A stretch of DNA of 39,658 nt, from NCBI GenBank assembly GCA_900316395.1, contig ONCT01000013.1:1-39658 (forward strand), read 5' to 3'. Below are positions 168 through 22,307 of this stretch, one piece after another. The notes under the pieces were generated by a model. It saw nothing but the letters and a program-made list of their open reading frames with translations. It ran no database searches and was not told the origin of the DNA. Position 1 is the stretch's first letter. Every line of letters begins with the position of its first letter. The position numbers were made by a program, and so were the translations under genes. The stretch comes from an uncultured Lachnospiraceae bacterium. Its GTDB lineage: Bacteria; Bacillota; Clostridia; Lachnospirales; Lachnospiraceae.

Positions 168-257
168 ATGAAACATACGGACGAACAAGCAGCTGTGTCC
201 AAAGACCGCCGCATCTGGTTAAGCAGGATGCTGAATAAGATAATCCATGTACTTTAG
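168..257 (+). CDS. Small ORF of 29 codons, unknown, possibly from a mobile element
   Basis: An ATG at 168 opens 29 codons ending at TAG (255-257). The product is basic, with a DRRIWLSRMLNKI core. I do not recognise a family with certainty. It lies in the GC-rich first 299 bases, after a terminator (13-49) and a second perfect 6-bp hairpin (112-117 with 124-129). No strong Shine-Dalgarno site precedes it. In Firmicutes this position normally holds rpsF, the first gene of rpsF-ssb-rpsR, so this ORF and its flanks look inserted or mis-joined. A short leader ORF of a mobile-element gene is one possibility, but that is inference. It may also be non-coding. Confidence 0.3.
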   Translation: MKHTDEQAAVSKDRRIWLSRMLNKIIHVL

Positions 258-299
258 TACTCGGAGAAAAACGCTGAGTAATGAAACGGAGGTTCCAGC

Positions 300-749
300 G
301 TGAATAAGGTTATTTTAATGGGAAGACTGACTCGTGATCCTGAGGTTAGATACTCACAGGGACAGAATGGCGAGCAGATGGCAATTGCCAGATATTCGCT
401 TGCTGTTGACAGAAGACGTGCGAGAAACACCGGAGATGATCAACAGTCAGCTGATTTTATTAACTGTGTAGCATTTGGCAGACAGGGTGAGTTTGCTGAG
501 AAGTATCTTAAAAAAGGTACTAAGATAGCCGTAACAGGTCGTATTCAGACAGGAAGCTATACTAATAAGGATGGCCAGAAAGTTTATACGACAGATGTAG
601 TTATAGAGGAACAGGAATTTGCTGAAAGTAAAGGAAGTGGCGAGGGCAGTACAGGTTATACACCTAGAGAGAGTGCTCCGTCAGCTGCAGATGCAGGCGG
701 TTTTATGCCGATACCTGATGGTATCGAGGGAGACCTTCCTTTTAAGTAA
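300..749 (+). CDS. ssb: Single-stranded DNA-binding protein
   Basis: SSB of 149 residues coats single-stranded DNA in replication, repair and recombination and recruits partner proteins. The N-terminal OB fold starts with the family sequence NKVILMGRLTRDPEVRYS and includes the conserved INCVAFGRQGEFAEKYLKKG stretch. A glycine- and serine-rich linker leads to an acidic tip ending DLPFK, close to the canonical DxPF partner-binding tail. The start is a GTG at 300 preceded by ACGGAGG. It is followed after 61 bp by rpsR, as in the conserved rpsF-ssb-rpsR operon, but rpsF is missing upstream. Positions 1-299 are atypical, so the native promoter is not in this window. Confidence 0.97.
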   Translation: MNKVILMGRLTRDPEVRYSQGQNGEQMAIARYSLAVDRRRARNTGDDQQSADFINCVAFGRQGEFAEKYLKKGTKIAVTGRIQTGSYTNKDGQKVYTTDVVIEEQEFAESKGSGEGSTGYTPRESAPSAADAGGFMPIPDGIEGDLPFK

Positions 750-810
750 AATCCTTGATTCCAAAGAGGTTACAGCAATTTTGTTGTAATACTGAAGAAG
801 GAGGAGAAAA

Positions 811-1077
811 ATGCCTTATAATAAGTCAGAGCAGGGTGCTACTGCTCCAATGAAGAGAAGACCTATGCGTAGAAGAAAGAAAGTTTGTGTATTCTGCGCA
901 GATAAGAATAATGAAATCGATTACAAGGATGTAAATAAGCTTAGACGTTACATCTCAGAGCGTGGTAAGATTCTTCCTAGAAGAATTACAGGAAACTGTG
1001 CAAAGCATCAGAGAGCACTTACAGTTGCTATCAAGAGAGCTAGACACATCGCTCTTATTCCATACGTAGTTGAGTAA
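811..1077 (+). CDS. rpsR: 30S ribosomal protein S18
   Basis: An 88-residue S18, a small-subunit protein that binds with S6 on the 30S platform. The first 25 residues are a basic extension rich in Arg and Lys. The conserved core follows ([42 protein letters not shown] and a C-terminal [12 protein letters not shown]). A strong GAAGGAGGAG site precedes the ATG. It is the last gene of its operon, since an intrinsic terminator follows 18 bp downstream. Its codons are revealing: 4 of 4 Leu are CTT and 4 of 7 Ile are ATC, unlike ribosomal protein genes to the right of position 5800. Confidence 0.98.
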
Positions 1078-1095
1078 TCAATTATAAAAGCTATG

Positions 1096-1123
1096 AGCCC
1101 GACATTAATTTGCCGGGCTTTTA
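1096..1123 (+). terminator. Terminator of ssb-rpsR
   Basis: AGCCCG (1096-1101) pairs with CGGGCT (1114-1119) around an AT-rich loop, followed by TTTTATT. It closes the ssb-rpsR transcript before the dapL promoter. Confidence 0.85.
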
Positions 1124-1193
1124 TTGTACATGAAAATAAATCATTAAAGAGGATTTTTGGACGGTTTACTAAGGGAATATCTCTTTCTTAAAA

Positions 1194-1221
1194 TTGACAT
1201 AAAATGGGGTGAAATTATAAT
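1194..1221 (+). promoter_or_regulatory. SigA-type promoter for dapL
   Basis: Perfect TTGACA (1194-1199), a 16-bp spacer and perfect TATAAT (1216-1221). The expected start site near 1228 leaves an AT-rich untranslated leader of about 110 bases before dapL. I see no strong fold in that leader. Confidence 0.85.
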
Positions 1222-1339
1222 TTTCCCTTTAAATTGTCAGAAAATTGTGATACAATATTTAAATGTATTATGTTACAAATATATTACATATTAATACAAA
1301 ATTGTTAAATCTATTTTTATATAAAGGAGACAAATAATA

Positions 1340-2557
1340 ATGTTCAGAGTTAATGAGGACTATTTGAAGCTTCCGGGAAGCTACCTTTTTTCTACAATAG
1401 CTAAAAAGGTGTCTGCGTTCAGTACAGAAAATCCGGACAAGAAGATCATAAGGCTTGGTATTGGAGATGTTACTCAGCCATTATGTCCGGCTGTTATAAA
1501 GGCTCTTCACAGTGCGGTTGATGAGATGGCAGATGCATCAACATTTAAGGGTTATGCACCTGATCTTGGATATGATTTCCTTAGAAATACAATTGCACAG
1601 GAAGATTATAAGAGCAGAGGATGCGATATTGCAGCAGATGAGATTTTTGTAAGTGATGGTGCAAAATCTGATTCTGGTAATATCCAGGAGATATTCTCAA
1701 AGGATACAAGAATAGCTGTTTGCGATCCTGTTTATCCTGTATATGTTGATACAAATGTTATGGCAGGAAGAACAGGTACATATGACAGTACTACAGGTCT
1801 TTGGAGCAATGTAATTTATATGCCATGTACAGCGGAGAACGGATTCAGCCCTGAATTTCCAAAGGAAGTTCCTGATCTTATCTATCTTTGCTATCCTAAC
1901 AATCCTACAGGTGCTTCAATCACAAAGGATGAGCTCCAGAAGTGGGTTGATTATGCAAATAAGAACGGCTCGGTAATTGTTTATGATGCGGCTTATGAAG
2001 CATATATTTCAGAGGAAAATGTTCCTCATTCTATATATGAATGCGAAGGCGCAAGAACATGTGCAATCGAAATAAGAAGTTTTTCAAAGAATGCCGGATT
2101 TACAGGAACACGTCTTGGATTCACAGTTATTCCTAAGGATATCAAGACAGCTGACGGCGTAACACTTCATCAGCTTTGGGCAAGAAGACACGGTACAAAG
2201 TTCAACGGAGCTCCTTATATCGTTCAGAAGGCCGGTGAAGCAGTATATTCTGCTGAAGGAAAAGCTGAGACAAAGAGCCAGATTGCATATTACATGAATA
2301 ATGCAAAATATATATATGACGGACTTAAGGCTGCAGGATACAGTGTTTACGGTGGTGTAAATGCTCCATATATCTGGCTTAAGACACCAAATAATATGAC
2401 ATCTTGGGAATTCTTTGATTTCCTTCTTGATAAGGCAAATGTTGTTGGTACACCTGGTTCAGGATTCGGACCAAGCGGTGAAGGATACTTCAGACTGACA
2501 GCATTTGGAAGCTACGAAAATACAGTCGAAGCTATTGACAGAATCAAAGCTATTTAA
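1340..2557 (+). CDS. dapL: LL-diaminopimelate aminotransferase
   Basis: A PLP enzyme of 405 residues that transaminates tetrahydrodipicolinate to LL-diaminopimelate. It is the one-step bypass in lysine and peptidoglycan synthesis used by many Clostridia, plants and Chlamydia. It is a fold-type I aminotransferase. Visible family motifs are [11 protein letters not shown] near residue 40, the [14 protein letters not shown] substrate loop, [11 protein letters not shown], and [14 protein letters not shown], which carries the Schiff-base lysine. The length matches the family (about 400-410). An AAAGGAG site precedes the ATG. It has its own consensus promoter at 1194-1221 and lies 44 bp upstream of the lysozyme gene with no terminator between, so the two may be co-transcribed. 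Confidence 0.96.
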
Positions 2558-2600
2558 GCTAATTTTATATACGCAGATATTTTACGTGCAGGGGGTTTTT

Positions 2601-4112
2601 ATGAAAAAAGCTTTTAACAGAGTTATCGGATTTATATTGGCGGTAGCAATCGTTTTAACAACGGTTATACAGGGTAAGACAGTTAAAGCGGCTACTCCGA
2701 TAGCAGATGGTAGAGGAAGAACTCATGATCACAGATTTGACGATTATGAACGAGTAGATGGAATCGACGTTTCATATGCTCAGGGTGATATTGATTGGAA
2801 GAAAGTAAAAGCGGCCGGAATTAAATTTGCATTTATCAGAGTCGGCGGTAGAGGTTACGGTCTTCCGGGGAATATGTATTTTGATGAAACATATATGGAC
2901 AATGTTAAGGGAGCGCTTGAGAATGGTATAGAGGTTGGACTTTATTTCTTCTCTCAGGCACTTACAGAGAAAGAAGCAGCTGATGAAGCAAAACAGTTGC
3001 TTGAATATCTCCATCCTAAGCAGGGAACATATCCACAGCTTAGAGGAGGAATTCCTCAGTATCTTAACAGAATCACACTTCCTATCGTTATGGACTATGA
3101 GTACAGTCCAAGCCAGAGTGGTAGATTTTTACATCATACACTCAGTAAATCACAGGCAACAAAAAATGTAGAAGCTTTCGTGAAGGTTATAAAGGGTGCA
3201 GGATACAGACCTTGTCTTTATGCGAGTGCTTCATTCCTTGAGGATCAGGTTGATGCAGACAGAATAAGTACTATGGCTGATATCTGGCTTGCTCATTACA
3301 CTGATGCTACTGATTATGATAAAGATTATACATATTGGCAGTATACAAGTATCGGTCGTATCGATGGTATCGATGAATATGTTGACCTTGATGTATGGTA
3401 TACAAAGGTTAAGAAAAGTAATGTTCAGTGTGTTAAGGACACTTACAAAGGTGTGACAGGATGGTATGCTGAAAGAAACGGAAAGATTCTTCCGAACTAT
3501 ACAGGTTTTGCAAAGAACTCAAATGGATGGTTCTATGTTAAAAACGGAAAAGTTGATTTCTCTATAAGTAATGTTATTAAGGGAGAGATTAATGGAAGAA
3601 GCGGCTGGTGGCATGTTAAAAATGCTAAAGTTATTTTCTCTGATACTGTCGCGAAAAATGAATATGGCTGGTGGCGTATAAGAGACGGTAAAGTTGATTT
3701 CGATTATACCGGAGCATCCAAGAATGAATACGGCTGGTGGAGAATTGTCGGCGGTAAAGTTGACTTCCAGTGTAATTCAGTAATCAAAAATGAAAATGGT
3801 TGGTTCAGATGCAAAGGCGGAAAGGTAGACTTTGGATTTAACGGACTTGCCAGAAATGAATACGGCTGGTGGTACTGCCGAACAGGTAAAGTTGATTTCA
3901 GTTACTGCGGACTTGCCAAGAATGAATATGGTTGGTGGTACGTAAAGGACGGTAGAGTAAGATTTGACTTTAACGGAATGGCTGAAAACCAGTACGGAAC
4001 ATTCCTTTGCAGAAACGGAAAAGTTGATTTCAATTATACAGGTATGTTCTATAGTAACTATGGTTATAGCTGCTATGTTGTAAATGGACGCGTGGTAGAT
4101 GTTTATTATTAA
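2601..4112 (+). CDS. Secreted GH25 (lysozyme-like) muramidase with C-terminal repeats
   Basis: A 503-residue secreted protein. I place the start at ATG 2601 (MKKAFNRVIGF) rather than further upstream inside dapL, because it follows GCAGGGGG and begins a signal peptide (KK, a hydrophobic core, cleavage near VKA). A glycoside hydrolase family 25 domain follows, with GIDVSYAQGDIDWKKVKAAG, GLYFFSQALTEKEAADEA, the catalytic-type segment IVMDYEY, and YASASFLED and TYWQYTS. Such enzymes cut the MurNAc-GlcNAc bond of peptidoglycan. From about residue 285 to the end there are about ten units of roughly 21-22 residues of the form GWWyvkdGKVDFdytGlaKNEY, probably a cell-wall-binding array. A role in wall turnover or attack on competitors is inference. 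Confidence 0.9.
   Translation: MKKAFNRVIGFILAVAIVLTTVIQGKTVKAATPIADGRGRTHDHRFDDYERVDGIDVSYAQGDIDWKKVKAAGIKFAFIRVGGRGYGLPGNMYFDETYMDNVKGALENGIEVGLYFFSQALTEKEAADEAKQLLEYLHPKQGTYPQLRGGIPQYLNRITLPIVMDYEYSPSQSGRFLHHTLSKSQATKNVEAFVKVIKGAGYRPCLYASASFLEDQVDADRISTMADIWLAHYTDATDYDKDYTYWQYTSIGRIDGIDEYVDLDVWYTKVKKSNVQCVKDTYKGVTGWYAERNGKILPNYTGFAKNSNGWFYVKNGKVDFSISNVIKGEINGRSGWWHVKNAKVIFSDTVAKNEYGWWRIRDGKVDFDYTGASKNEYGWWRIVGGKVDFQCNSVIKNENGWFRCKGGKVDFGFNGLARNEYGWWYCRTGKVDFSYCGLAKNEYGWWYVKDGRVRFDFNGMAENQYGTFLCRNGKVDFNYTGMFYSNYGYSCYVVNGRVVDVYY
3450..4106 (+). repeat. About ten tandem GWW/GKVDF protein repeats
   Basis: Within the lysozyme gene, a unit of about 63-66 bp recurs in frame. Each unit starts with GWW or GWF, has GKVDF about 8 residues later, and ends with KNEYG or a variant. 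The middle units are most alike at the DNA level (aatgaatacggctggtgg recurs). The first and last units have diverged. One unit is longer because of an added GEINGRS. Confidence 0.85.
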
Positions 4113-4118
4113 ATTCAC

Positions 4119-4147
4119 TTTACAAAGTGGAGAATCTATCATATAAT
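4119..4147 (+). promoter_or_regulatory. Promoter of the T-box aspS transcript
   Basis: TTTACA (4119-4124), a 17-bp spacer and TATAAT (4142-4147), starting just after the lysozyme stop codon. Transcription would begin near 4154 and read through the T-box leader. Confidence 0.75.
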
Positions 4148-4189
4148 CTATGAATATTATGGGTGAATGTTCAGATTTCACTTAAAAAA

Positions 4190-4453
4190 GATAAAAGCTG
4201 TGAAGGAGACGGAACACAGAAAGACATTGCAGGGATCGATGGTCATGGACTGGAAGCCATCGAATGAAAAACTGTGAAACCTAACACTCCGGAGCCGGTA
4301 TGAAGAAAAGCTTACCCGTAAGTAACGCGTTAAGTACGATTTGAGAGAATATTTTTTCATGATATTATATTATGGAAGATATTAATGCGGGTGGTACCGC
4401 GGAAATTATGATTTTCCGTCCCGGGATGCTGTAGAGGTGTCCCGGGATTTTTT
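4190..4453 (+). promoter_or_regulatory. T-box riboswitch leader of aspS, specifier read as AAC (Asn)
   Basis: The T-box bulge sequence GGGTGGTACCGCGG is at 4389-4402. It is followed by a transcription terminator (4419-4453) that competes with the antiterminator. Stem I is readable: CACAG pairs with CTGTG (4272-4276), an upper arm has CGATGG pairing with CCATCG, and GGAG pairs with CTCC (4287-4290) below the specifier loop. In the loop, the triplet immediately before A-CTCC is AAC at 4283-4285. By analogy with known leaders (codon, then A, then the lower stem) this is the specifier and would sense uncharged tRNA-Asn rather than tRNA-Asp. The T-box assignment is firm and the codon assignment is moderately sure. 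Confidence 0.9.
4419..4453 (+). terminator. T-box regulated terminator
   Basis: Two copies of the palindrome TCCCGGGA (4419-4426 and 4440-4447) pair around a 13-base loop, followed by TTTTTT (4448-4453). Binding of uncharged tRNA to the T-box bulge would favour the antiterminator and let RNA polymerase continue into aspS. Confidence 0.9.
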
Positions 4454-4504
4454 ATGAAATAAAATATACCGGGATCAAGAAAGTTTAGAATCAGGAGTAG
4501 AGAA

Positions 4505-5797
4505 ATGGATATCAAAAACATTTACAGAGACAAAACAATTGATAAGATGACAGAAGCAGACGTAGGAAGTGAAGTAAGACTTGCCGGATGGGTAGAGAAT
4601 ATTCGTGACCATGGTGGAGTTTCATTCATCGACCTTCGTGATATGTACGGAGTTATGCAGGTTGTTCTTCGTGATACTGCACTTCTTGACGGAATCTCAA
4701 GAGAGCAGGCAATCTCTGTTAAGGGACTTGTTGAGCACAGAGATGAAGAGACATATAACCCAAAGATCCCTACAGGAACTATAGAAGTTGAAGCTCATAC
4801 AATCGACATCCTCGGAAAAGTATATGAGCAGCTTCCTTTTGAAATCATGACATCTAAAGAAGTAAGAGAAGATGTAAGACTTAAGTATCGTTATCTTGAT
4901 CTTAGAAATGAAAGAGTTAAGGACAATATCCTTTTCAGATCTAAGGTTATCAGCTTCCTCAGAAAGAAGATGGAAGACATGGGATTTGTTGAAATTCAGA
5001 CACCTATCCTTTGTGCTTCTTCACCTGAAGGCGCAAGAGATTATATCGTTCCTTCAAGAAGATATAAGGGTAAGTTCTATGCGCTTCCACAGGCACCTCA
5101 GCAGTATAAGCAGCTTCTCATGGTTTCAGGTTTTGATAAATATTTCCAGATTGCACCTTGTTTCAGAGATGAGGATGCAAGAGCTGACCGTTCACCTGGA
5201 GAGTTCTATCAGCTTGATTTCGAAATGAGTTTTGCAACTCAGGAAGATGTATTTAAGATCGGTGAGGAAGTTCTTACAGCAACATTTAAGGAATTTGCTC
5301 CTGAAGGATTTGAAGTAACAGAAGCTCCATATCCTATCATCAGCTATAAAGAAGCGATGCTTAAGTTCGGTTCTGATAAGCCGGACCTAAGAAACCCGCT
5401 TAGAATCATTGATCTTTCAGAATTTTTTGAGAGATGTACATTTAAGCCTTTCCACGGAAAGACTGTACGTGCTATCAATGTCCCAAGAAAGCTTTCAAAG
5501 GGTCAGCATGAGAAGATGCTTAAGTTTGCTACAGGAATCGGTATGGGCGGACTTGGTTATCTTGAAGTTCTTGAAGATGGAAGTTATAAGGGACCTATCG
5601 ATAAATTTATTCCTGATGAACTTAAGGAAGAACTTAGAGAGAAGGCAAGTTTAAATATCGGAGATACTATTTTCTTCATAGCTGATAAGGAAGCTCAGGC
5701 AGCTAACTTTGCAGGTCAGATCAGAAATGAACTCGGTGCAAGACTTGATCTTATCGAGAAAAATGCATATAGATTCTGCTATATTAATGATTTCCCT
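4505..5797 (+). pseudogene. aspS: Aspartyl-tRNA synthetase, truncated at a sequence junction
   Basis: Class II AspRS charges tRNA-Asp (and tRNA-Asn if non-discriminating). AGGAG precedes ATG 4505. The OB-fold anticodon domain has GWVENIRDHGGVSFIDLRD. Catalytic motif 1 (GFVEIQTP), the LPQAPQQYKQLLM loop and motif 2 (CFRDEDARADR, EFYQLDFE) follow, then the bacterial GAD insertion. AspRS identity ends at YINDFP, residue 431. Bacterial AspRS has about 590 residues and continues here with the rest of the catalytic domain, including motif 3. The reading frame stays open for 75 more codons to 6025, but these are the reverse complement of the neighbouring gene. As written the protein cannot work. His36 matches the residue typical of non-discriminating AspRS. 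It is more likely a mis-join than a true pseudogene. Confidence 0.93.
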
Positions 5798-6448
5798 ATT
5801 AAGAGCACTTGCCTCAGTGTAACTAAGCTCTTCAGACGCAAGCATATCAGGAATGGCAGAAGACAATTCCGATATCATATTCATTACAGAAGCCTGGTTA
5901 GCCTTGTAATTCTCGAACTGACTTGCCAGCTGAGGATTAACCTCTATGCCAAGCTTACTCATTTGAATAATGGTAGCCACATCAATGTTGCTATTAGTGT
6001 TAACTACTCTTGCCATTTCATTTAGAGAGTTAGAATCAATTGGCATCTGTTCTCTCATCATATTATTAACCATATTAACATTTCTCTCATTAACAGCAAG
6101 ATTAGCAGAATCAAGCGCGTTAAGAAGAGTTGGATTGTTCATGGCATTATTGGAAATTGGTTTGATCTGAATGGTGTTACCATCATTAGATTTTACCTGA
6201 AAAAAAACAGACTGTCCTTGCTCTAACAGAATATCCTTCGCAAGAGTTGCTGTAATATTCTGTCCACTGCTCAGACCGAGAATTACGGTATTACCTTTTA
6301 CTGAATTAACTGTGCCTTCAAATACCTGACCGGCAGTGAGCTTCTGCACAGTTGAAACTAACTGCTCCACACCTTGTGACTTAGTAGATATCTCTCCGCC
6401 TGATGCAAGATTATTATTGTATTGATTAACAAGATTAGATATCTGCAT
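5798..6448 (-). CDS. FliK-like (flagellar hook-length control type) protein, 3' end missing
   Basis: About 217 residues remain of a protein starting MQISNLVNQYNNN at ATG 6448. Residues 30-100 (TAGQVFEGTVNSVKGNTVILGL..GQNITATL..GQSVFFQVKS..TIQIKPI) resemble the middle domain of Lachnospiraceae FliK or hook-length control-like proteins. The rest is Asn-rich and helical. It lies 9 bp after rnhB in the same orientation. Near 5798-5805 it meets the reversed aspS sequence. Codons downstream of that point continue to 5651 in frame but encode antisense aspS, so the true C-terminus is lost. The family call rests on the overall pattern and is tentative. Confidence 0.6.
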
Positions 6449-6457
6449 AGTTTAACC

Positions 6458-7225
6458 TCATACAAAGTTCCTAATGAATTTATCACGATGAACCGGTGTC
6501 CTGCCAAGTGTCTTAAGAGCATTAATGTGCTCCTTAGTTCCATATCCTTTATTGTCCTTGAAACCATATCCAGGATATATACTATCTAATTCAACCATTA
6601 TTCTATCTCTTGTAACCTTGGCAATAATAGACGCAGCTGCAATAGATATGGACTTAGCATCACCTTTGACAATAGGAACCTGCTTAATTGTAACCTCTGG
6701 AATTCTTACAGCATCAACAAGTAATAAATCAGGCTTAACCTCTAATTTATCAATTGCCTGTCTCATTGCTTCATGTACAGAAAGAGATATATTATCTGTC
6801 TCATTAATTGACTCCACACTAACAATTCCAACAGATGCTGCAACAGCCTTTTCCATTATTTCATCATAGAGCTTCTCTCTTCTTGTTTCGGATAATTTCT
6901 TAGAATCATTAATATAGTAGATTAGAAGGTCCTTCGGTAATATAACAGCCCCTGCAACAGTAGGACCAGCAAGAGGCCCACGACCTACTTCATCTATTCC
7001 ACATATATATTCATATTCGCTATATTTCTTCTCAAATTCAGTCATCTTCAATACACGAGCTCGTTCATGCTGAAGCTTAACCATCTTCTTTTGAGCTTGT
7101 GATATTATCTTAGATACACCCGGTCTTCCGTCCTTAATATATTCATCAATAAAAGCCGGAAGCATTGCATCAGAAGTATCCTTATATTCATCCTGAATCT
7201 GTCTGATTGATTTCTCATTATCCAT
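6458..7225 (-). CDS. rnhB: Ribonuclease HII
   Basis: RNase HII (255 residues) nicks 5' of ribonucleotides in DNA and starts ribonucleotide excision repair. A family-specific N-terminal extension of about 70 residues, as in Bacillus, precedes the catalytic core. The core contains GIDEVGRGPLAGP (Asp78 and Glu79 are metal ligands), NDSKKLSETRRE, LLVDAV, GDAKSISIAAASIIAKVTRD and GYGTKEH. An AGGTAG site precedes ATG 7225. The gene follows lepB by 9 bp in the rplS-lepB-ylqF-lepB-rnhB series, a common Firmicute order. Confidence 0.97.
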   Translation of the reverse strand: MDNEKSIRQIQDEYKDTSDAMLPAFIDEYIKDGRPGVSKIISQAQKKMVKLQHERARVLKMTEFEKKYSEYEYICGIDEVGRGPLAGPTVAGAVILPKDLLIYYINDSKKLSETRREKLYDEIMEKAVAASVGIVSVESINETDNISLSVHEAMRQAIDKLEVKPDLLLVDAVRIPEVTIKQVPIVKGDAKSISIAAASIIAKVTRDRIMVELDSIYPGYGFKDNKGYGTKEHINALKTLGRTPVHRDKFIRNFV

Positions 7226-7234
7226 ACAAACTAC

Positions 7235-7888
7235 CTATTTATCCGTCAAAGTTGTAATCTCATCAAATGGGTAAATTCTACAAAGTGCCCGTCCTGTAAA
7301 ATGTGAACCCTTAATCGGCCCCACATTGGCAAAACGACTATCACTAGAATTATTACGATTGTCTCCCATTACAAAATACTCATCCTCACCCAGCGTAAGG
7401 GGTTCCGCCGCAATTCCAGGATTACTTATCCTTGCCAAGCCATAATGCTCATCAAGCTTAACACCATTGATAAATATATTACCATCATAATCAATATAAA
7501 CTGTCTCCCCTGGAAGACCAATTATTCTCTTAATGTAATATGTCTTACTAAAGAATGAATTAGAAGAACCTGGTCCTTCATAAGGGAACACAACAATATC
7601 GAATCTCTCTGGGTCTGAGAATCTGTATGTTAACTTATCAACAATTAGGTTGTCTCCATCACTTAATGTAGCTTCCATTGATGAGCCACTAACTCTTGTT
7701 CTTTGTCCTAAAAAATGTAAGATACAGAAGGTAATTCCAATTATTACAAGAAAATATATAAATAGCTTTAGCACGTCCTTCTTAGTGATTTTCTCTTTGT
7801 TATCCTTATCACCATTCTTACCATCTTCATTATTATCTTCATTCACATTTACATTTTTGTTATATAACACATCTTCTTTTCTAGGCAT
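7235..7888 (-). CDS. lepB: Signal peptidase I
   Basis: A type I signal peptidase that removes signal peptides from exported proteins on the outer face of the membrane. I choose ATG 7888 (MPRKEDVLYN) over the ATG at 7897, because AAGAAGG abuts the earlier ATG but is 9 bases from the later one. With that start its first codon overlaps the ylqF stop by 8 bp, which suggests translational coupling. The Asn/Asp/Lys-rich cytoplasmic N-terminus is followed by one transmembrane helix (near residues 40-60), the catalytic-serine motif GSSMEATL, the catalytic-lysine motif YYIKRIIGLPGE, and GDNRNNSSDSR. It is the second of two paralogues flanking ylqF. Confidence 0.95.
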   Translation of the reverse strand: MPRKEDVLYNKNVNVNEDNNEDGKNGDKDNKEKITKKDVLKLFIYFLVIIGITFCILHFLGQRTRVSGSSMEATLSDGDNLIVDKLTYRFSDPERFDIVVFPYEGPGSSNSFFSKTYYIKRIIGLPGETVYIDYDGNIFINGVKLDEHYGLARISNPGIAAEPLTLGEDEYFVMGDNRNNSSDSRFANVGPIKGSHFTGRALCRIYPFDEITTLTDK

Positions 7889-8741
7889 TTTCTTCATCCT
7901 TCTTTAATTCATCTAATGTCACTTTACCGATTGTTCCACTTCGAAACTCATCTATAATTAGATTATACGTCTTATTATAGTCAATTTCTTCACCTTTTTT
8001 AATACAATTTCTATTCTTAGCAATATTATCAATGATATCAACTATATCATCAGACTCATCAACATCATATCTATCTCCAATGAGTCCAGGATAATTCTTA
8101 ATTATAAATTCAACAATTCCAGTCGCAATTTCAGAATTATCAAGAATATTATCATTCATTGAGCCAATGCATGCAAGATTAAATCCAACCTGCTTATCTT
8201 CAAACTTAGGCCACAGGATTCCTGGTGTGTCAAGAAGCTCTACATTCTTATTAAGCCTTATCCATTGCTTGCCCTTGGTAACTCCAGGCTTATTACCGGT
8301 CTTGGCAGATGCCTTGCCAGCATAGGTGTTAATAAATGTTGACTTTCCGACATTAGGAATACCAACGACCATTGCCCTTATTGGTCTATTCTTAATGCCT
8401 CTTTTTAAGTCTCTTTCCTTCTTCTTAGCACACGCCTTGTCAATTATCTTACTAACTTCCTTAATTGAGCTTTTCTTACGAGAATCAATAGCCACAACGT
8501 AGAAGCCTTTTTCTTTGAAATATTCAATCCATTCGGCGTTCTTACTTGAATCAGCAAGGTCACTTTTGTTAAGGATAATAATTCTTGCTTTATTATTGGC
8601 AAGTGAATCTATATCTGGATTCCTTGAACTATTAGGAACCCTTGCATCTACAAGCTCAACAACAATATCTATTAACTTAATATCTTCTTTCATCTGACGA
8701 ATAGCCTTCGTCATATGACCTGGATACCATTGATAATCCAT
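7881..8741 (-). CDS. ylqF: Ribosome biogenesis GTPase YlqF/RbgA
   Basis: A circularly permuted GTPase needed for late 50S subunit assembly in Firmicutes. The order of G motifs is permuted: VELVDARVPNSSRNPDI, then G4 LNKSDL, then G1 GIPNVGKSTFIN, then G3 DTPGILWPKFED. A C-terminal helical domain of about 100 residues follows. The length of 286 is normal for the family. A GAAGGTGGA site precedes ATG 8741. Both neighbours are signal peptidase genes, and rplS (a 50S protein) lies just upstream, which is the usual Firmicute context. Confidence 0.96.
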   Translation of the reverse strand: MDYQWYPGHMTKAIRQMKEDIKLIDIVVELVDARVPNSSRNPDIDSLANNKARIIILNKSDLADSSKNAEWIEYFKEKGFYVVAIDSRKKSSIKEVSKIIDKACAKKKERDLKRGIKNRPIRAMVVGIPNVGKSTFINTYAGKASAKTGNKPGVTKGKQWIRLNKNVELLDTPGILWPKFEDKQVGFNLACIGSMNDNILDNSEIATGIVEFIIKNYPGLIGDRYDVDESDDIVDIIDNIAKNRNCIKKGEEIDYNKTYNLIIDEFRSGTIGKVTLDELKKDEENA

Positions 8742-8761
8742 GTCTGTTCCACCTTCAATTA

Positions 8762-9385
8762 TTAATTAACAATTCCAAAATCTCCAAAGGATAGCTTGAA
8801 CCACACTTTACCCTTTATCTGCTTCTTACTTATTAGTCCTATGCTTTGATATCTGGAATCCTCACTATTATTCCTGTTATCTCCCAGCACAAAATACTCA
8901 TCCTCACCAAGAGTCAACTGAGTCTCAGCAAGTCCACTGTATGTAATAGATTCTGTGTCAGCAACATCATCGTATTTCTCACCGTTAACAAACAGCCTGC
9001 CTCCTTTAATAACTACAGTATCTCCAGGAACGGCAACTACGCGCTTAACATATATAGTATCCTGCTCATTAGACAATGATTCGAATGCAACAATATGATT
9101 ATGGCTTGGCTTCATGAACAGATAACGGCCTCTGTTAATAAGCAGATTCGTCTCATCTTCAATTGTAGGTCTCATAGACACTCCAGCCATCTTAACACTT
9201 GTAAAAAACGTAAACACAAGAAGAAATGCCACAAGAACAACAGCCACAACAATTCCTACATTAATTGCTGTCGCCTGTAATTCTTTGACCTTGAACCTTC
9301 TTCTTCGACGCCTAAAGTTAAGACCTCTTGAGAACTTACGGCTAATAAAGCTTGTAAATCTATCAAATAAATCCTTAAACCACAT
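8762..9385 (-). CDS. lepB: Signal peptidase I (second copy)
   Basis: A membrane serine peptidase of 207 residues. The basic N-terminus (RRRRRFKVKE) and one transmembrane helix (near 40-62) precede the catalytic-serine region AGVSMRPTIED, the catalytic-lysine region YVKRVVAVPGDTV and LGDNRNNSEDSR. It lacks the long acidic N-terminus of the other copy, so the two may differ in substrate or regulation. GGAG precedes ATG 9385. The rplS terminator lies about 45 bp upstream. A possible promoter (TTGTTC, 17 bp, TATTAT) overlaps the terminator stem and tail, so it may be transcribed separately. Confidence 0.95.
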   Translation of the reverse strand: MWFKDLFDRFTSFISRKFSRGLNFRRRRRRFKVKELQATAINVGIVVAVVLVAFLLVFTFFTSVKMAGVSMRPTIEDETNLLINRGRYLFMKPSHNHIVAFESLSNEQDTIYVKRVVAVPGDTVVIKGGRLFVNGEKYDDVADTESITYSGLAETQLTLGEDEYFVLGDNRNNSEDSRYQSIGLISKKQIKGKVWFKLSFGDFGIVN

Positions 9386-9428
9386 AATATCTCCAATATA
9401 TTCTTATGAAAATATAATACAATACTCT

Positions 9429-9457
9429 AAAAAAAAGAACAACCAAAGGTTGTTCTT
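9429..9457 (-). terminator. rplS terminator
   Basis: On the - strand GAACAACC (9455-9448 side) pairs with GGTTGTTC (9444-9437 side) around a 3-base loop and runs into eight T residues. It ends the rplS transcript before lepB. Confidence 0.9.
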
Positions 9458-9471
9458 TAATTAGTATCTAA

Positions 9472-9825
9472 TTATTGGATAGCTTCTTTAACCTTTGCTC
9501 TCTTACCAACACGATCTCTTAAGTAATTAAGCTTAGCTCTTCTAACCTTACCATTACGTACAATCTCAATCTTAACAACGTTAGGACTATGTAATGGGAA
9601 TGTCTTCTCAACTCCAACACCATTAGAGAACTTTCTTACAGTAAATGTCTCACGATTGCTACCGTTCTGTCTCTTAATTACTGTTCCTTCGAAAATCTGA
9701 ACTCTTTCACGATTTCCTTCCTTAATCTTACAATGAACCTTAACAGTATCACCTACTGCAAATTCATCAACAGATTCTTTTAACTCAGCATCTTCAATTT
9801 GCTTAATAATTTCACTAGCATTCAT
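9472..9825 (-). CDS. rplS: 50S ribosomal protein L19
   Basis: L19 (117 residues) sits at the subunit interface of the 50S particle. Conserved segments are [49 protein letters not shown] and [16 protein letters not shown]. An AGGAGG site precedes the ATG. It has its own promoter (9909-9937) and its own terminator, so its output can be set apart from trmD. Its codons (Leu TTA 3 of 4, Ile ATT 8 of 9) contrast with rpsR in the left block. Confidence 0.98.
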
Positions 9826-9829
9826 AATG

Positions 9830-9905
9830 TGACCTCCTATATATTCTTCGACATTCTTAATACCAATATACAGGTACCAGCGGACTATCTATCATTCACA
9901 ACTTG
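9830..9905 (-). promoter_or_regulatory. Putative rplS leader RNA
   Basis: Between the rplS promoter and its Shine-Dalgarno site lie about 75 transcribed bases. They include a GGTACC/GGTATT hairpin (near 9868-9887). Firmicutes are known to carry an L19 autoregulatory leader at this place. Position and hairpin fit, but I cannot test the consensus. Confidence 0.4.
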
Positions 9906-9908
9906 TTT

Positions 9909-9937
9909 ACTATACCACGAATCTATGTAAAACACAA
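9909..9937 (-). promoter_or_regulatory. rplS promoter
   Basis: On the - strand TTGTGT (9937-9932), a 17-bp spacer and TATAGT (9914-9909). It lies between trmD and rplS and gives rplS independent transcription. Confidence 0.65.
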
Positions 9938-9954
9938 GAAAAATATGGATTTTT

Positions 9955-10638
9955 TTAGTTGTCCTCTAACAAATCAGGTCTATACTTTCTTGTTCGCTCT
10001 ACTGACATATTGTAGCGCCACTCATCAACCTTAGCATGATTACCAGATAAAAGTATGTCTGGTACCTTCTTACCATTCCATGTCTCAGGTCTTGTATATT
10101 GAGGATATTCTAACAGATTATTGCTGAAGGATTCTTGTGTGGTAGATTCTTCGTTATGAAGAACTCCTGGCACAAGACGGGCAATGGCATCAACCATTAT
10201 CATAGCTGGCAGCTCTCCTCCAGTTAACACATAATCGCCAATTGACACATAATCTGTTACAATTTCTTCTAATACTCTCTCATCAATCCCCTCATAGTGT
10301 CCACATAATAGTACAACCTCATCTAAAGTAGCGTAAGTTTTTGCCATATTCTGATAAAATGTCTTGCCTTGAGGCGTTAGATATATGCAAGGTATTTTAT
10401 GCCCTGCCCTATTAACAATTGCCTGATACGCATCATACACAGGCTGCGCCTGCATTACCATTCCAGCACCGCCACCATAGGGATAGTCATCAACCTTATT
10501 ATGCTTATCAAGGGTGTAATCTCTTATATTGATAGCTTCAATCTCAATAAATCCATTATCAATAGCTCGGCCAATAATGCTTGTATTCAAGCCATCCATT
10601 ATCATTTCCGGGAATAATGTTAAGATATAGAATTTCAT
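9955..10638 (-). CDS. trmD: tRNA (guanine-37-N1)-methyltransferase
   Basis: A SPOUT-class knotted methyltransferase (227 residues) that makes m1G37 next to the anticodon and prevents +1 frameshifting. Motifs are YPYGGGAGMVMQ, LCGHYEGIDERV, and the S-adenosylmethionine knot segment YVLTGGELPAM, followed by RLVPGVLHNEEST and the C-terminal YTRPETWNGKKVPDILLSGNHAKVDEWR. It is immediately downstream of rimM, as in most bacteria. No clear terminator follows, only AT-rich sequence before the rplS promoter. Confidence 0.98.
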   Translation of the reverse strand: MKFYILTLFPEMIMDGLNTSIIGRAIDNGFIEIEAINIRDYTLDKHNKVDDYPYGGGAGMVMQAQPVYDAYQAIVNRAGHKIPCIYLTPQGKTFYQNMAKTYATLDEVVLLCGHYEGIDERVLEEIVTDYVSIGDYVLTGGELPAMIMVDAIARLVPGVLHNEESTTQESFSNNLLEYPQYTRPETWNGKKVPDILLSGNHAKVDEWRYNMSVERTRKYRPDLLEDN

Positions 10639-10639
10639 A

Positions 10640-11143
10640 TTATACCAATCCCTTCATAAGATGAATCTTCATGTAATTGTCAGTCATATTAACATCAAGA
10701 ATACATTCTTTTATAGCTGGAACTAATACTTCTTTGTCGTCATGCTCAATCACATATACATCATTCGCTCCAGTATGAAGTACATCCTTAACTATTCCAA
10801 ATGCCTCATCATCTTCTGTTACAACATTAAGTCCAATCAAATCAGCAACAAAATATTCATCCTCTTCTAGCGGAACAGCATCTTTCCTTGTAACGAATAT
10901 ACCTTTCTTAACATGCATTTCAATATCATTAATGCTATCAAATCCTTTGAATTTAAGGATTACTAAGTTTTTCTGGAATTTTACAGACTCTATTTCAAGT
11001 ATCATATTGTCTTTTTCAGGTTCAAGTATTACTTCTTTAAGCTTTTTGAACCTTTTTACATCATCTGTAAGAGGGAATACCTTAACCTCGCCCTTTATTC
11101 CATGTGTTTTAATTATTGCACCTACTTGTAATAAATCCTGCAT
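10640..11143 (-). CDS. rimM: Ribosome maturation factor RimM
   Basis: RimM (167 residues) assists 16S rRNA processing and 30S head assembly. The start is ATG 11143 (MQDLLQVGAIIKTHG), not an upstream in-frame codon at 11182, because TAGGAG lies 7 bases before it and the family begins here. The N-terminal domain has VGAIIKTHGIKGEVKV. A PRC-barrel C-terminal domain has EYFVADLIGLNVV and the segment ending VLVPAIKECILDV. A terminator-like hairpin (11165-11194) separates it from khpA and may attenuate rimM-trmD relative to the upstream ribosomal genes. Confidence 0.95.
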   Translation of the reverse strand: MQDLLQVGAIIKTHGIKGEVKVFPLTDDVKRFKKLKEVILEPEKDNMILEIESVKFQKNLVILKFKGFDSINDIEMHVKKGIFVTRKDAVPLEEDEYFVADLIGLNVVTEDDEAFGIVKDVLHTGANDVYVIEHDDKEVLVPAIKECILDVNMTDNYMKIHLMKGLV

Positions 11144-11164
11144 TAAAACTCCTATACTAAAATG

Positions 11165-11194
11165 TAAGAAAACTCCCACCAAAATGATGGGAGT
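11165..11194 (-). terminator. Attenuator-like terminator inside the operon
   Basis: On the - strand ACTCCCA (11194-11188) pairs with TGGGAGT (11178-11172), followed by TTTTCTTAC. It falls between khpA and rimM in an otherwise continuous operon, so partial read-through is likely. Confidence 0.65.
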
Positions 11195-11202
11195 AATTAA
11201 AC

Positions 11203-11430
11203 CTATAGAATATCTACAACTACCTTCTTATCAGTCTTTGTGGCAGCTGCTTTAACAACGTTACGAATTGACTTAGCAATACGTCCCTTCTTGCCGATAA
11301 CCTTACCCATATCAGAACTATCAACATGAAGTTCAAGCTCAATAGTGTTACCATTGACCTTCTCTTCAACATTTACAGCATCAGGGTTATCAACAAGAGC
11401 TTTAGCAATTACTTCTACTAATTCTTTCAT
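11203..11430 (-). CDS. khpA: KH-domain RNA-binding protein KhpA
   Basis: A single KH domain of 75 residues (YlqC/KhpA family), an RNA chaperone-like protein that pairs with KhpB in several Firmicutes and affects cell-division transcripts. The GxxG nucleic-acid loop is GKKG in MGKVIGKKGRIAKSIRNVVKAA. The family length is about 75-85. It sits between rpsP and rimM, the standard place. An AGGAAGGAG site precedes the ATG. A short hairpin (TAAGGAA/TTCCTTA) spans the rpsP-khpA gap. Confidence 0.95.
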   Translation of the reverse strand: MKELVEVIAKALVDNPDAVNVEEKVNGNTIELELHVDSSDMGKVIGKKGRIAKSIRNVVKAAATKTDKKVVVDIL

Positions 11431-11466
11431 TGATTACTCCTTCCTAATAAGGAAAATACAGCTTCC

Positions 11467-11709
11467 TTACTTAGTAACACCACATGCCTTAAAGATTCTT
11501 GCAACAGTTTCTGTTGGCTTAGCACCATTGTCTAACCACTTCTTAGCAAGCTCTTCATTAACATGGTATTCTGAAGGATCCTTAGTTGGATCATATGTAC
11601 CAATTTCTTCAATACATCTTCCATCTCTAGGTGCTCTTGCATCAGCAACAACAATACGATAGAAAGGTGCTTTCTTCTGACCCATTCTTCTTAATCTAAT
11701 CTTTACCAT
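11467..11709 (-). CDS. rpsP: 30S ribosomal protein S16
   Basis: S16 (80 residues), an early-binding 30S assembly protein. It begins [24 protein letters not shown] and continues with [14 protein letters not shown] and [14 protein letters not shown], all conserved. A strong AGGAGG site precedes the ATG. It lies between ffh and khpA. Leu is TTA in 2 of 3 and Ile ATT in 4 of 5, a pattern that differs from the left block. Confidence 0.98.
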
Positions 11710-11748
11710 TTTCTTTTCCTCCTAAATGTAAATTGTTATTTATCTATG

Positions 11749-13104
11749 TTAAAAAGGGAATTTCATTCTTCCTTTTTTACCACCTAACATACCTGGCATC
11801 TTCTTCATCATCTTCTTAGATTGCTCAAATTGCTTGATGAATCGATTAACTTCACTAATATCTAATCCAGCACCGTTAGCAATCCTCTTCTTACGAGATG
11901 GATTCATTAGCTTAGGATTAGCTCTCTCTTCAGGCGTCATACTAAGTATGATTGCCTCAACATGAGCAAGGCTCTTCTCGTCCATGCTTCCTTCTAGCTG
12001 TGACATTTGCTTAGAAGATAAGCCTTGCATTCCCATTCCTGGAAGCATATTAAGAACAGACGATAATCCTCCCATATTCTTCATCTGACTCATGGAGTCT
12101 AGATAATCATTATAGTCAAATTCAGCCTTCTTCATCTTACGAGACAGCTCTTTGGCCTTCTCGTCGTCAATGGCTTCTTCTGCCTTCTCAATTAATGTTA
12201 GCACATCTCCCATACCAAGAATACGAGATGCCATTCTATCTGGATAGAACTGCTCTAAGTCTGAGAGCTTCTCACCCATACCACAGAATATTATTGGCTT
12301 ACCAGTAACTGCTCTTGTAGATAATGCAGCACCACCTCTTGTATCACCGTCAAGCTTGGTTAGAATGATACCATCTATTCCAATAAGCTCGTCAAATGTC
12401 GATGCAACATTTACGGCATCCTGACCGGTCATAGCATCTACAACAAGAAATGTCTGTGTGACATTAACAGCATCCTTAATGGAAATAAGTTCATCCATCA
12501 TCTCATCATCGATGTGAAGACGACCAGCAGTATCAAGAATAACCACATTATCTCCCATCTTCTTAGCATGCTCAATAGCCGCTTTGGCAATGTCACTAGG
12601 CTTATTCTTATCTCCCATGGAGAATACTTCAACGCCTTGCTTTTCACCATTAACCTGTAACTGCTTAATAGCCGCAGGTCTATATATATCGCAGGCAACA
12701 AGAAGTGGCTTTTTGCCCTTCTCCTTAACCTTACCAGCAAGCTTGGCTGTAGTTGTTGTCTTACCAGCACCCTGAAGGCCAACCATCATATAGACAGTAA
12801 TCTCTTGTCCCTTGGCATAAGTAAGCTCAGTCTCAGTCTCACCCATAAGCTTGACCATTTCTTCATTAACAATCTTAATAACCATCTGACCTGGATTAAG
12901 ACCATTAAGAACATCCTGGCCAACAGCTCTTTCCTGAACAGACTTAATAAATGACTTAACAACCTTGAAGTTAACATCAGCCTCAAGTAATGCCATTTTA
13001 ACTTCCCTTAATGCCAGCTTGACATCCTCTTCAGTAAGAAGGCCTTTGCTTTTTAAGCCCTTGAATACATTCTGTAGTTTTTCTGACAGATTCTCAAATG
13101 CCAT
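11749..13104 (-). CDS. ffh: Signal recognition particle GTPase Ffh
   Basis: Ffh (451 residues) binds 4.5S/6S SRP RNA and signal sequences and delivers nascent membrane proteins to FtsY. I start it at ATG 13104 (MAFENLSEKLQ), with GCGAGG upstream; a GTG three codons earlier lies too close to that site. The N domain (1-95) is followed by the G domain with P-loop GLQGAGKTTTTAKLA near 109-120, DTAGRLHID and LTKLDGDTRGGAAL. The Met-rich M domain (from about 300) has NMLPGMGMQG, the RNA-binding helix SRKKRIANGAG, and a basic end. It is preceded by ylxM, its usual partner gene. Confidence 0.98.
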   Translation of the reverse strand: MAFENLSEKLQNVFKGLKSKGLLTEEDVKLALREVKMALLEADVNFKVVKSFIKSVQERAVGQDVLNGLNPGQMVIKIVNEEMVKLMGETETELTYAKGQEITVYMMVGLQGAGKTTTTAKLAGKVKEKGKKPLLVACDIYRPAAIKQLQVNGEKQGVEVFSMGDKNKPSDIAKAAIEHAKKMGDNVVILDTAGRLHIDDEMMDELISIKDAVNVTQTFLVVDAMTGQDAVNVASTFDELIGIDGIILTKLDGDTRGGAALSTRAVTGKPIIFCGMGEKLSDLEQFYPDRMASRILGMGDVLTLIEKAEEAIDDEKAKELSRKMKKAEFDYNDYLDSMSQMKNMGGLSSVLNMLPGMGMQGLSSKQMSQLEGSMDEKSLAHVEAIILSMTPEERANPKLMNPSRKKRIANGAGLDISEVNRFIKQFEQSKKMMKKMPGMLGGKKGRMKFPF

Positions 13105-13133
13105 ATTACGCACCTCGCCATGCTCGGAAAGCT

Positions 13134-13162
13134 GTCGTCACCCTGCTTCGCAGGCTTACGAC
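13134..13162 (-). other. Hairpin in the ylxM-ffh gap
   Basis: GTCGT pairs with ACGAC (outer) and CCTGC with GCAGG (inner) around a 3-base loop, in a gap of about 60 bp. No T-run follows, so it is not a terminator. It may be a processing site or a translation-control element of ffh. Confidence 0.55.
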
Positions 13163-13165
13163 ATA

Positions 13166-13498
13166 TTACAATTCCTCTAATATATCATTAGATATATCAC
13201 ATATCTTAGACAGATTATCTTCTGTAGCCTCATTGGCTAGTTCATTAATCTTCTTCACATCATCTCTAATGTGCATAAACTTCTCAACAAGATGTAGCTT
13301 GTCTTCATACTTTTGTAATTTATCATTACACCTCTTAATCAAATCATGAACACCTTGTCTTGATATACCCTGTTCTTCAGCTATTTCAGCCAAAGACAAG
13401 TCATCCATTATATAGCCTTCATATATTTCCCTTTGATGCTGATTAAGCAGCTCGCCGTAAAAATCATACAGAAAGCCTTGCCATACTTTATCTTCCAT
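13166..13498 (-). CDS. ylxM: YlxM family DNA-binding SRP operon protein
   Basis: YlxM/p13-like proteins are sigma-70 region-4-like helix-turn-helix proteins encoded before ffh in Firmicutes and Mycoplasma. Their precise job in SRP regulation is uncertain. The start is ATG 13498 ([15 protein letters not shown]), with AAAAGGAAA upstream, giving 110 residues, the family length. The HTH is visible at [24 protein letters not shown], followed by a coiled C-terminal part. It is the first gene of the ylxM-ffh-rpsP-khpA-rimM-trmD operon, driven by the promoter at 13558-13586. Confidence 0.92.
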
Positions 13499-13557
13499 AA
13501 CATTTTCCTTTTGCTGCAATATCCTTAAAATACAAAGTATTGCACACAACGTAATGT

Positions 13558-13586
13558 ATTATACTAATATCACAGAGTACTGTCAA
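13558..13586 (-). promoter_or_regulatory. Promoter of the ylxM-ffh-rpsP operon
   Basis: Perfect TTGACA (13586-13581), a 17-bp spacer and perfect TATAAT (13563-13558) on the - strand, between the ilvA terminator and ylxM. Confidence 0.9.
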
Positions 13587-13624
13587 GCATTTTTTCTTGA
13601 CACGCTTTTTATTTCTATTCAAAG

Positions 13625-13648
13625 AAAAATCCCAGCAAGGATGCTGGG
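13625..13648 (-). terminator. ilvA terminator
   Basis: On the - strand CCCAGCA (13648-13642) pairs with TGCTGGG (13637-13631) around a 4-base loop, followed by ATTTTTC. It closes the yceD-to-ilvA transcript. Confidence 0.9.
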
Positions 13649-13658
13649 AATATTATTA

Positions 13659-14870
13659 TTATAAATTAGTTCTTACAACCTTAGGCTTATATCCATCATC
13701 ATCAAGCGCCTTAAGAATATTCTCCTTGTGCTCCGTTCCAAAGGCTTCCATTGTTATTCTTAGCTCCACAGCAGCATTTCTATTAGTTGATACAAACTGG
13801 TTATGCTCTAGCTTAATTACATTACCTTGCATATCAGCTATAAGCTGTGACACCTTGGCAAGCATACCTGGCTTATCAGGAAGCAATACTGATACTGTAA
13901 ATATTCTGTCTCTGAAAATAAGGCCTTGCTGTACAACAGATGACATTGTAATAACATCCATATTACCGCCACTAAGGATGGATACAACCCTCTTGTTCTT
14001 AACCTTAAGCTGATTAAGGGCTGCAACAGTAAGAAGACCTGAATTCTCAACAACCATTTTGTGATTCTCCACCATATCAAGAAATGCTGTTATAAGCTCA
14101 TCATCCTCAACTGTAATTATATCGTCAAGATTCTCCTTAATATATGGGAAAATGTTCTCTCCAGGAGTCTTAACAGCAGTACCATCAGCAATTGTATTAA
14201 TTGAATCTAGAGATACCACCTTTCCCTGCTTAAAGGATTCCTTCATGCAGGCAGCACCCGCAGGCTCAACACCAATCACCTTAATCTTAGGATTAAGTAA
14301 CTTAGCAAGTGTAGATACACCTGTTGCTAATCCGCCACCACCAATTGGCACAAGTATGTATTCAACAAGTGGAAGCTCTTTGAATATTTCCATTGCAATT
14401 GTACCCTGACCAGTAGCTACTGCAAGATCATCAAATGGATGGATAAATGTTAATCCTTCCTTTTCTGCCAATTCAAGAGCCTTGGCACATGCTTCATCAT
14501 ATACATCACCTGATAATACAACCTCAGCGCCATAGTTCTTAGTTCTGTTAACCTTAATAAGAGGTGTTGTTGTAGGCATAACAATTGTAGCCTTAGCACC
14601 AAATAGTTTTGCTGCATATGCAACACCCTGAGCATGATTACCAGCAGATGCAGTAATAAGACCACGCTTTCTCTCGTCTTCTGTCAGAGTAGATATCTTA
14701 TAATATGCACCACGAACCTTGTATGCACCAGTAAACTGCATATTCTCTGGCTTAAGATATACCTGGTTATTACATCTTTCACTTAAGAAATCACTATATA
14801 CAAGCTTTGTTTCAAGTGTAACCTTGCTAACTATCTTACTAGCTTCTTCGAATTTGTCTAATGTAAGCAT
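13659..14870 (-). CDS. ilvA: Threonine ammonia-lyase with C-terminal ACT domain
   Basis: A PLP enzyme of 403 residues that deaminates threonine to 2-oxobutyrate, the entry to isoleucine synthesis or to catabolism. The PLP lysine lies in FTGAYKVRGAYYKI. The substrate loop is SAGNHAQGVAYAA, and the phosphate-binding glycine loop is PIGGGGLATG. The last 80 residues form an ACT domain (FTVSVLLPDKPGMLAKVSQLIADMQGNVI), typical of the ~400-residue form. AAGGAGAC precedes ATG 14870. The gene lies only 21 bp after ftsY and seems to be the last cistron of that transcript, an unusual neighbour for secretion and cell-cycle genes. Confidence 0.94.
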   Translation of the reverse strand: MLTLDKFEEASKIVSKVTLETKLVYSDFLSERCNNQVYLKPENMQFTGAYKVRGAYYKISTLTEDERKRGLITASAGNHAQGVAYAAKLFGAKATIVMPTTTPLIKVNRTKNYGAEVVLSGDVYDEACAKALELAEKEGLTFIHPFDDLAVATGQGTIAMEIFKELPLVEYILVPIGGGGLATGVSTLAKLLNPKIKVIGVEPAGAACMKESFKQGKVVSLDSINTIADGTAVKTPGENIFPYIKENLDDIITVEDDELITAFLDMVENHKMVVENSGLLTVAALNQLKVKNKRVVSILSGGNMDVITMSSVVQQGLIFRDRIFTVSVLLPDKPGMLAKVSQLIADMQGNVIKLEHNQFVSTNRNAAVELRITMEAFGTEHKENILKALDDDGYKPKVVRTNL

Positions 14871-14891
14871 CTTAGTCTCCTTATATGAATC

Positions 14892-15767
14892 TTATTCAAA
14901 TAATTTATTAACATATTCATCAACATCGAATTCCTTAAGGTCTTCTACACCTTCACCGTATCCAATGTATTTTACAGGAATGTTTAACTCCTCTTTAATG
15001 GCAATAGCTACACCACCTTTGGCAGTTCCATCCATCTTCGTTAAGATAATACCATTAACATCAGTTGCCTCTGCAAATTCCTTTGCCTGCATAAGTGCAT
15101 TCTGTCCAGTTGTGGCATCTAATACAACAAGAGTCTCTTTATTAGCTTCTTCATATTCCTTATCAACAATTCTGTTAATCTTCTTAAGCTCTTCCATAAG
15201 ATTCTTCTTATTGTGAAGCCTTCCAGCAGTATCTACAATAGCAACATCAACATTTCTTGATTTGAAAGCCTTCATACCATCAAAGACAACCGATGAAGGG
15301 TCACTGCCTTCGCTTCCACCAATCAAATCAACACCAGCTCTGTTAGCCCATTCCTGAAGCTGTTCTCTTGCAGCAGCACGAAATGTATCAGCAGCAATCA
15401 TTAATACCTTCTTGCCGCTGCTTTTATATTTCATTGCCAGCTTACCAATGGAAGTAGTCTTACCAACTCCATTAACACCTACAACAAGACAAACTGTATT
15501 ATTGTCAAGGAAATCATAAGCGTTATCATCAGTAGCCATTCTTCCTTTAATTATTTCCTTAAGAAGATTCTTACAATCTTCTGGTTTTTTTATCTTTTCT
15601 CTAAATACTGTATTCTTTAATTCATGAAGTATAGACTCAGTAGCATATACTCCTAAGTCACCCATAATTAACATTTCCTCAAGCTCTTCATAGAAATCTT
15701 CATCGATTTCAGAAAAACCTGTGAAAAGACCATTCATAAATTTAGAAAAGAATCCTTGTTCTGCCAT
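14892..15767 (-). CDS. ftsY: Signal recognition particle receptor FtsY
   Basis: The SRP-receptor GTPase docks Ffh-ribosome complexes at the membrane. I take ATG 15767 (MAEQGFFSKFMNG) as the start, because the GTG three codons earlier abuts the only purine-rich stretch. The amphipathic N-terminus and N domain precede the P-loop GVNGVGKTTSIGKLA. DTAGRLHNKKNLMEEL, LDATTGQNAL, LTKMDGTAKGGVA and the C-terminal YIGYGEGVEDLKEFD follow. At 291 residues it is the short form without the acidic A domain, common in Firmicutes. It directly follows smc (15 bp). Confidence 0.96.
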   Translation of the reverse strand: MAEQGFFSKFMNGLFTGFSEIDEDFYEELEEMLIMGDLGVYATESILHELKNTVFREKIKKPEDCKNLLKEIIKGRMATDDNAYDFLDNNTVCLVVGVNGVGKTTSIGKLAMKYKSSGKKVLMIAADTFRAAAREQLQEWANRAGVDLIGGSEGSDPSSVVFDGMKAFKSRNVDVAIVDTAGRLHNKKNLMEELKKINRIVDKEYEEANKETLVVLDATTGQNALMQAKEFAEATDVNGIILTKMDGTAKGGVAIAIKEELNIPVKYIGYGEGVEDLKEFDVDEYVNKLFE

Positions 15768-15782
15768 TTGTATCACTCTTTC

Positions 15783-20026: not shown

Positions 20027-20047
20027 AACTATCCTCTCACATTATTT

Positions 20048-20071
20048 GAAGCCCTTAAAAATAAGGGCTTC
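20048..20071 (-). other. Perfect 10-bp hairpin after acpP
   Basis: GAAGCCCTTA (20048-20057) pairs with TAAGGGCTTC (20062-20071) around a 4-base loop, between acpP and rnc. The - strand tail is AAATAATG rather than a T-run, so termination would be weak. It may protect the abundant acpP transcript or be a processing site. Confidence 0.6.
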
Positions 20072-20091
20072 AACAGTTTCTATTATTATAA

Positions 20092-20319: not shown

Positions 20320-20342
20320 ATTCATTCTCCTTTCTAGTCATT

Positions 20343-21356: not shown

Positions 21357-21450
21357 TACAGCCTCCATAAATTAATATGATATAACACAAAAAATATACA
21401 CTATATTATACTTAAAATCAAGAATAATAGACATAAAAATAGGCATAATT

Positions 21451-21507: not shown

Positions 21508-21532
21508 AATGAAGCACTAGACGTTATATCAA

Positions 21533-21712: not shown

Positions 21713-21715
21713 TTG

Positions 21716-22237: not shown

Positions 22238-22263
22238 GGCATACTCCTATCCACACTTTGTCA

Positions 22264-22292: not shown

Positions 22293-22307
22293 TATAAATT
22301 TTTATTC

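Follow-up and report, generated by a model that had tools for sequence, protein, structure and literature searches.

A very probable assembly chimera: truncated aspS of another genus joined to the host's fliK-like gene within a shared 20-bp word

For metagenome-assembled genomes, the GUNC paper (PMC8201837) describes misassembly as joining fragments of several sources into chimeric contigs, an error regarded there as relatively rare beside mis-binning. The locus described here can be placed beside such contigs. The window, i.e. the whole stretch of DNA that was analysed (39,658 bp), covers positions 1-39658 of contig C25 (40,788 bp) in genome G000, the host, which is an assembly of 75 contigs and 2.17 Mb with a listed completeness of 98.61% and a listed contamination of 0.08%. 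Within a 20-bp word of this contig the kinship of the DNA changes from one genus to another, and two genes are cut there. With a probability of about 0.96, C25 is an assembly chimera in which a 5.6-kb stretch matching another genus (218-5799) has been joined at this word to DNA of the host's own genus. The features of the window are as follows.

1-217, no strand assigned: terminal piece, where the body of rpsF would be expected; no similarity to G191:C27 before 218
218-5799, plus strand: block collinear with G191:C27 (another genus of the same family), in one order and on one contig
300-749, plus strand: ssb, second copy in G000 (PF00436)
814-1077, plus strand, start approximate: rpsR, second copy in G000, aligned to an 87-aa ORF of G191
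1340-2557, plus strand: class I/II aminotransferase, second copy in G000 (PF00155)
2505-4112, plus strand: GH25 lysozyme-like protein with choline-binding-type repeats (PF01183 and PF21540), collinear in G191
4505-5799, plus strand: aspS, 5' part only (431 full codons), nearest relative found G191 (87% identical)
5780-5799, no strand assigned: shared 20-bp word and very probable mis-join; matches to the left side run up to 5799, those to the right side from 5780/5781 onwards
5780-6448, minus strand (start 6448): fliK-like gene, first 223 codons, within a 97% DNA match to G002
5800-30043, no strand assigned: host-genus DNA, collinear with congener G002:C24 by DNA alignment

The left block shares with G191 a collinear gene order comprising the end of rpsF, ssb, rpsR, the aminotransferase, the GH25 gene and aspS, of which rpsF and rpsR are presumed names and the aminotransferase is taken by us to be dapL-like. 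Identity to G191:C27 is 84% over 218-1077, 72% over 1340-4042 and 83% over 4191-5799. The listed start of the GH25 ORF, at 2505, is probably too far upstream. Ahead of aspS, 4191-4423 is 78% identical to G191, and the somewhat longer stretch 4191-4460 resembles a T-box leader, antiterminator and terminator included; Rfam at the gathering score returned no family for it. Several of these genes have counterparts elsewhere in the host: its own rpsF/ssb/rpsR region lies on C45, with rpsR at C45:35637-35864, and its aminotransferase gene, at C33:83079-84253, is 69% identical to the copy in the block.

In a sample of 397 genomes of the family, taken from a larger set, the nearest relative over the aspS part is G191 (genus g185), at 87%, and the best protein identity on that side is 91% among the best 80 of 586 named relatives, many of which are titled Eubacterium sp. 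or Lachnospiraceae bacterium, with several of ruminant origin. No genome in these two samples could be recognised as the source species of the block. The block resembles normal chromosomal DNA from a different organism, and the first 5.8 kb of the contig are most likely foreign to G000. Judged only from the 6.2 kb that G191 carries upstream of the block, there is no sign that G000 contains further parts of this foreign chromosome, since a search with this part gave short stretches of about 80 bases at 86-89%, others at 67-73%, and the host's rpsF region on C45 at 68%.

The block runs almost to the end of the contig. At 218, within the last part of rpsF, similarity to G191 begins without transition, and the sequence beyond it is different: 1-217 matches neither the G191 rpsF nor any other part of G000. 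A search with the terminal 1-235 in 391 class genomes (host included) matched seven others, those listed over about 35 bases or less, and the same query found no match in plasmids and phages. The left end of the contig may thus be a third piece, with a second switch near 218.

The aspS gene that closes the block is incomplete. The preliminary description had placed the end of AspRS identity at residue 431 (YINDFP), and this is borne out, as what the ORF from 4505 adds after this residue, up to its stop at 6025, is unrelated. In the window protein the match to the Pfam family tRNA-synt_2 (PF00152) breaks off at profile position 208 of 308, whereas the complete enzymes reach 307 (the host's copy on C27) and 306 (G191); the class II catalytic domain, of which we take motif 3 to be a part, is thus incomplete. 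The identity had been thought to end about 160 residues short and ahead of motif 3; the truncation stands, and a hand count against G191, for which the reference AspRS is a 592-aa ORF with an upstream start, gives about 150.

It had also been pointed out that a real rearrangement would call for another aspS. Such a gene is indeed present on C27, complete (594 aa) and of a different kind. As it is only 43% identical to the truncated copy, it was rejected as the parent of the latter; being no duplicate of the truncated gene, it makes a foreign block a better fit than a rearrangement. The missing 3' end of the truncated gene, looked for as had been proposed, did not turn up in the assembly. A longer probe, which covered the G191-type aspS 3' portion plus downstream sequence, had no match in G000, and a shorter 3' probe had none in G000 or in the three congeners probed, although it matched its own source and all four further genomes of other genera. 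Two diverged aspS-like genes are apparently present in some genomes of other genera, including G191 (L131 10527-12305; G191:C23:7348-7743 and 6432-6686). The congeners gave only short matches, consistent with an aspS of the C27 type.

To the right of the join the contig is of the host's genus. Identity to G002 is 97% over 5780-12934, 89% over 12934-24776, 80% over 24877-26129 and 83% over 26188-30043, the comparison covering the right part up to 30043. Collinearity with G001 and G006 extends to 13602 only, the next 17-19 kb fetched from them showing none, while with G002 it goes on to at least 30043. Position 13602 falls between what we take to be a small gene beside ffh and the next gene. The G+C content is 0.393 to the left of the join and 0.365 to the right, a small difference.

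The FliK-like gene read leftwards from 6448 had been described as losing its C-terminus at the join, which agrees with the comparison: the window keeps 223 codons of a gene that has 645 in G002. The FliK of G002 (645 aa) carries Flg_hook (PF02120) at 545-615. The window fragment has no Pfam match, so the name fliK rests on the G002 relative and on the end of C24 in the host assembly, where Flg_hook is matched. This end was located by searching G000 with congener DNA from beyond the break, which gave G000:C24:32402-38473 (6,072 bp, 96% identical to G002). The match reaches the terminal base of C24 (38,473 bp), and the contig end encodes 378 codons including Flg_hook; the missing 3' end, which had been suggested as a thing to look for, is thus present at the very last base of another contig. 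In the coordinates of G002, the part on C25 stops at 7155 and that on C24 starts at 7288, leaving a gap of 132 bp. The 223 codons of the window, 44 from the gap and the 378 of C24 add up to 645, the size of the G002 gene. A search of G000 with the sequence of the gap gave chance-level matches only (best E 0.08). In all four congeners examined (G001, G002, G003 and G006), the genes of the C24 end and the present locus adjoin on one contig and in the same order. On this alignment evidence, the contig that really adjoins the C25 locus is most likely C24, at a distance of about 132 bp as measured on G002:C24, and the host's fliK is in all likelihood intact, interrupted only by a gap in the assembly.

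The position of the join follows from the matches on its two sides. A DNA search with window 5000-6400 as query was run against 40 relatives. In all seven genomes of the host's genus the main match begins at window position 5780/5781 (query 781/782), and in all eight genomes of other genera with a left-side match of at least about 390 bits it ends at 5799 (query 800). None of the 40 relatives matched both sides of this query on one contig. The left-side aspS was found in none of the seven same-genus genomes beyond short matches at 72-77%, which are taken to be their own, different aspS. Pairwise alignments of the fetched regions agree: for G002 a single alignment covers 5780-12934 at 97% identity, and those of G001, G003 and G006 likewise begin at 5780/5781. 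The window was scanned with Rfam at gathering scores and for tRNA genes, neither of which revealed an element that would explain the break. A programmed or overlapping arrangement of the two genes was also considered and ruled out, as the full-length aspS and fliK of the relatives lie in separate places.

Between these limits lies the word 5780-5799, which is exact in the fliK of G002 and which on the aspS side spells Y-I-N-D-F-P and the first two bases of the next codon. A count anchored on the aspS alignment has ATG for this codon in all of the 80 aspS relatives fetched, vs ATT in the window; it replaces an earlier one, in which the closest inexact match at any place of a locus had given G as the base after the word in 77 of 80. 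Since the main alignments of separate genomes end at identical bases on both sides and the ATG is found in 80 of 80, the break is not a matter of chance. At the aspS position the exact 20-mer occurs in none of the 80 relatives, which carry one to seven mismatches (four in G191), so the aspS side of the word is read from the window only. Microhomology had been noted around 5786-5802; a shared word does exist, its true extent being 5780-5799 (20 bp). For genomes of 2.17 and 3.0 Mb, about 53 common 20-mers are expected by chance, with the base composition of the window applied to both and bases taken as independent. A shared 20-mer is consequently no sign of biology, and an assembly graph with short k could stumble there. 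A direct comparison of 78,336 bp of host DNA with 119,331 bp from aspS-side relatives (five named and three unnamed loci) gave one common 20-mer; as homologous regions were retained, this is no clean background rate.

How the join came about can be weighed against these observations. The preliminary description favoured a chimeric contig as the simplest reading, and the two-sided one-base break, the different kinship on each side and the remainder of fliK on C24 all speak for it. By kinship, different source genomes lie on either side of the join; what is most likely the true continuation of one side stands elsewhere in the assembly (fliK on C24, with the 132-bp gap remaining); and the shared word, at 20 bp and with its aspS side taken from the window itself, is long enough for a short-k graph. 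The 20-bp word common to the other organism's aspS and the host's fliK would have formed a crossing point in a graph of short k-mers. The assembly path may have left the host's fliK at this word and entered the aspS of the other organism on the opposite strand, while the true host locus would most likely go on, past some 132 bases that the assembly lacks, to C24. We infer that the join arose in the assembler, rather than in the library or the cell. A chimeric molecule made in the laboratory, by library ligation or by template switching at the 20-bp word in the course of amplification, and then extended by the assembler would look much the same, and the word fits template switching as well as it fits a graph crossing; but a lone chimeric molecule is, as general knowledge has it, normally outvoted by normal reads, and we hold this origin to be very unlikely.

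A real recombination in the host would have brought a core-gene block from another genus, 5.6 kb long or more, into fliK by means of the 20-bp microhomology, breaking the flagellar hook-length gene and adding extra core genes. If true, it would mean that the transfer of a core-gene block across genera broke the flagellar fliK in this population. C25 is contiguous as given and the shared word stands at its junction, as such an event would have it, and the complete aspS elsewhere would make a truncated copy dispensable. An insertion splitting fliK would likewise leave the end of the gene on another contig, so the evidence from C24 alone is not decisive. However, the insertion would need to have its second junction within the very 132 bp that are unassembled at the C24 terminus, the block consists of core genes in the order of G191, and near 218, inside rpsF, it switches to sequence that is matched nowhere beyond short hits (in G191, the rest of G000 and the class genomes). 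The join was, moreover, found in none of the seven same-genus genomes. A real insertion is highly improbable on three counts taken together: the block repeats core genes of the host in an arrangement known from another genus, it is cut within a gene at each end, and a second junction would have to lie in those very 132 bases. The assembly chimera is the reading we adopt.

The main import of the join in C25 is a warning about quality. Taken at face value, G000 would falsely appear to have a pair of aspS genes, an additional ssb and rpsR and a disrupted fliK, and to have recently received DNA across genera. As the contamination estimate is only 0.08% (with completeness at 98.61%), it does not reveal the join. 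The mis-join can be placed without reads, from the one-base breaks in two sets of relatives and from the contig end that carries the missing half.

The complete AspRS of C27 and G191 share with one another and with the window gene the same domains (OB fold, tRNA-synt_2 and GAD); the latter differs in stopping at tRNA-synt_2 position 208 of 308 and, as regards the C27 enzyme, in belonging to another lineage (43% identity). The first 223 codons of the FliK-like gene lie within DNA that is 97% identical to that of G002, the difference being that the window copy is without Flg_hook, which sits at the end of C24. The chimeric contigs treated in the GUNC paper (PMC8201837) resemble C25 in having more than one source within one contig, with a foreign part that duplicates core genes, and in a contamination estimate that stays low, here 0.08%. 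Relative to what is described there, the present case differs in that the base of the join and the likely true neighbour can be named.
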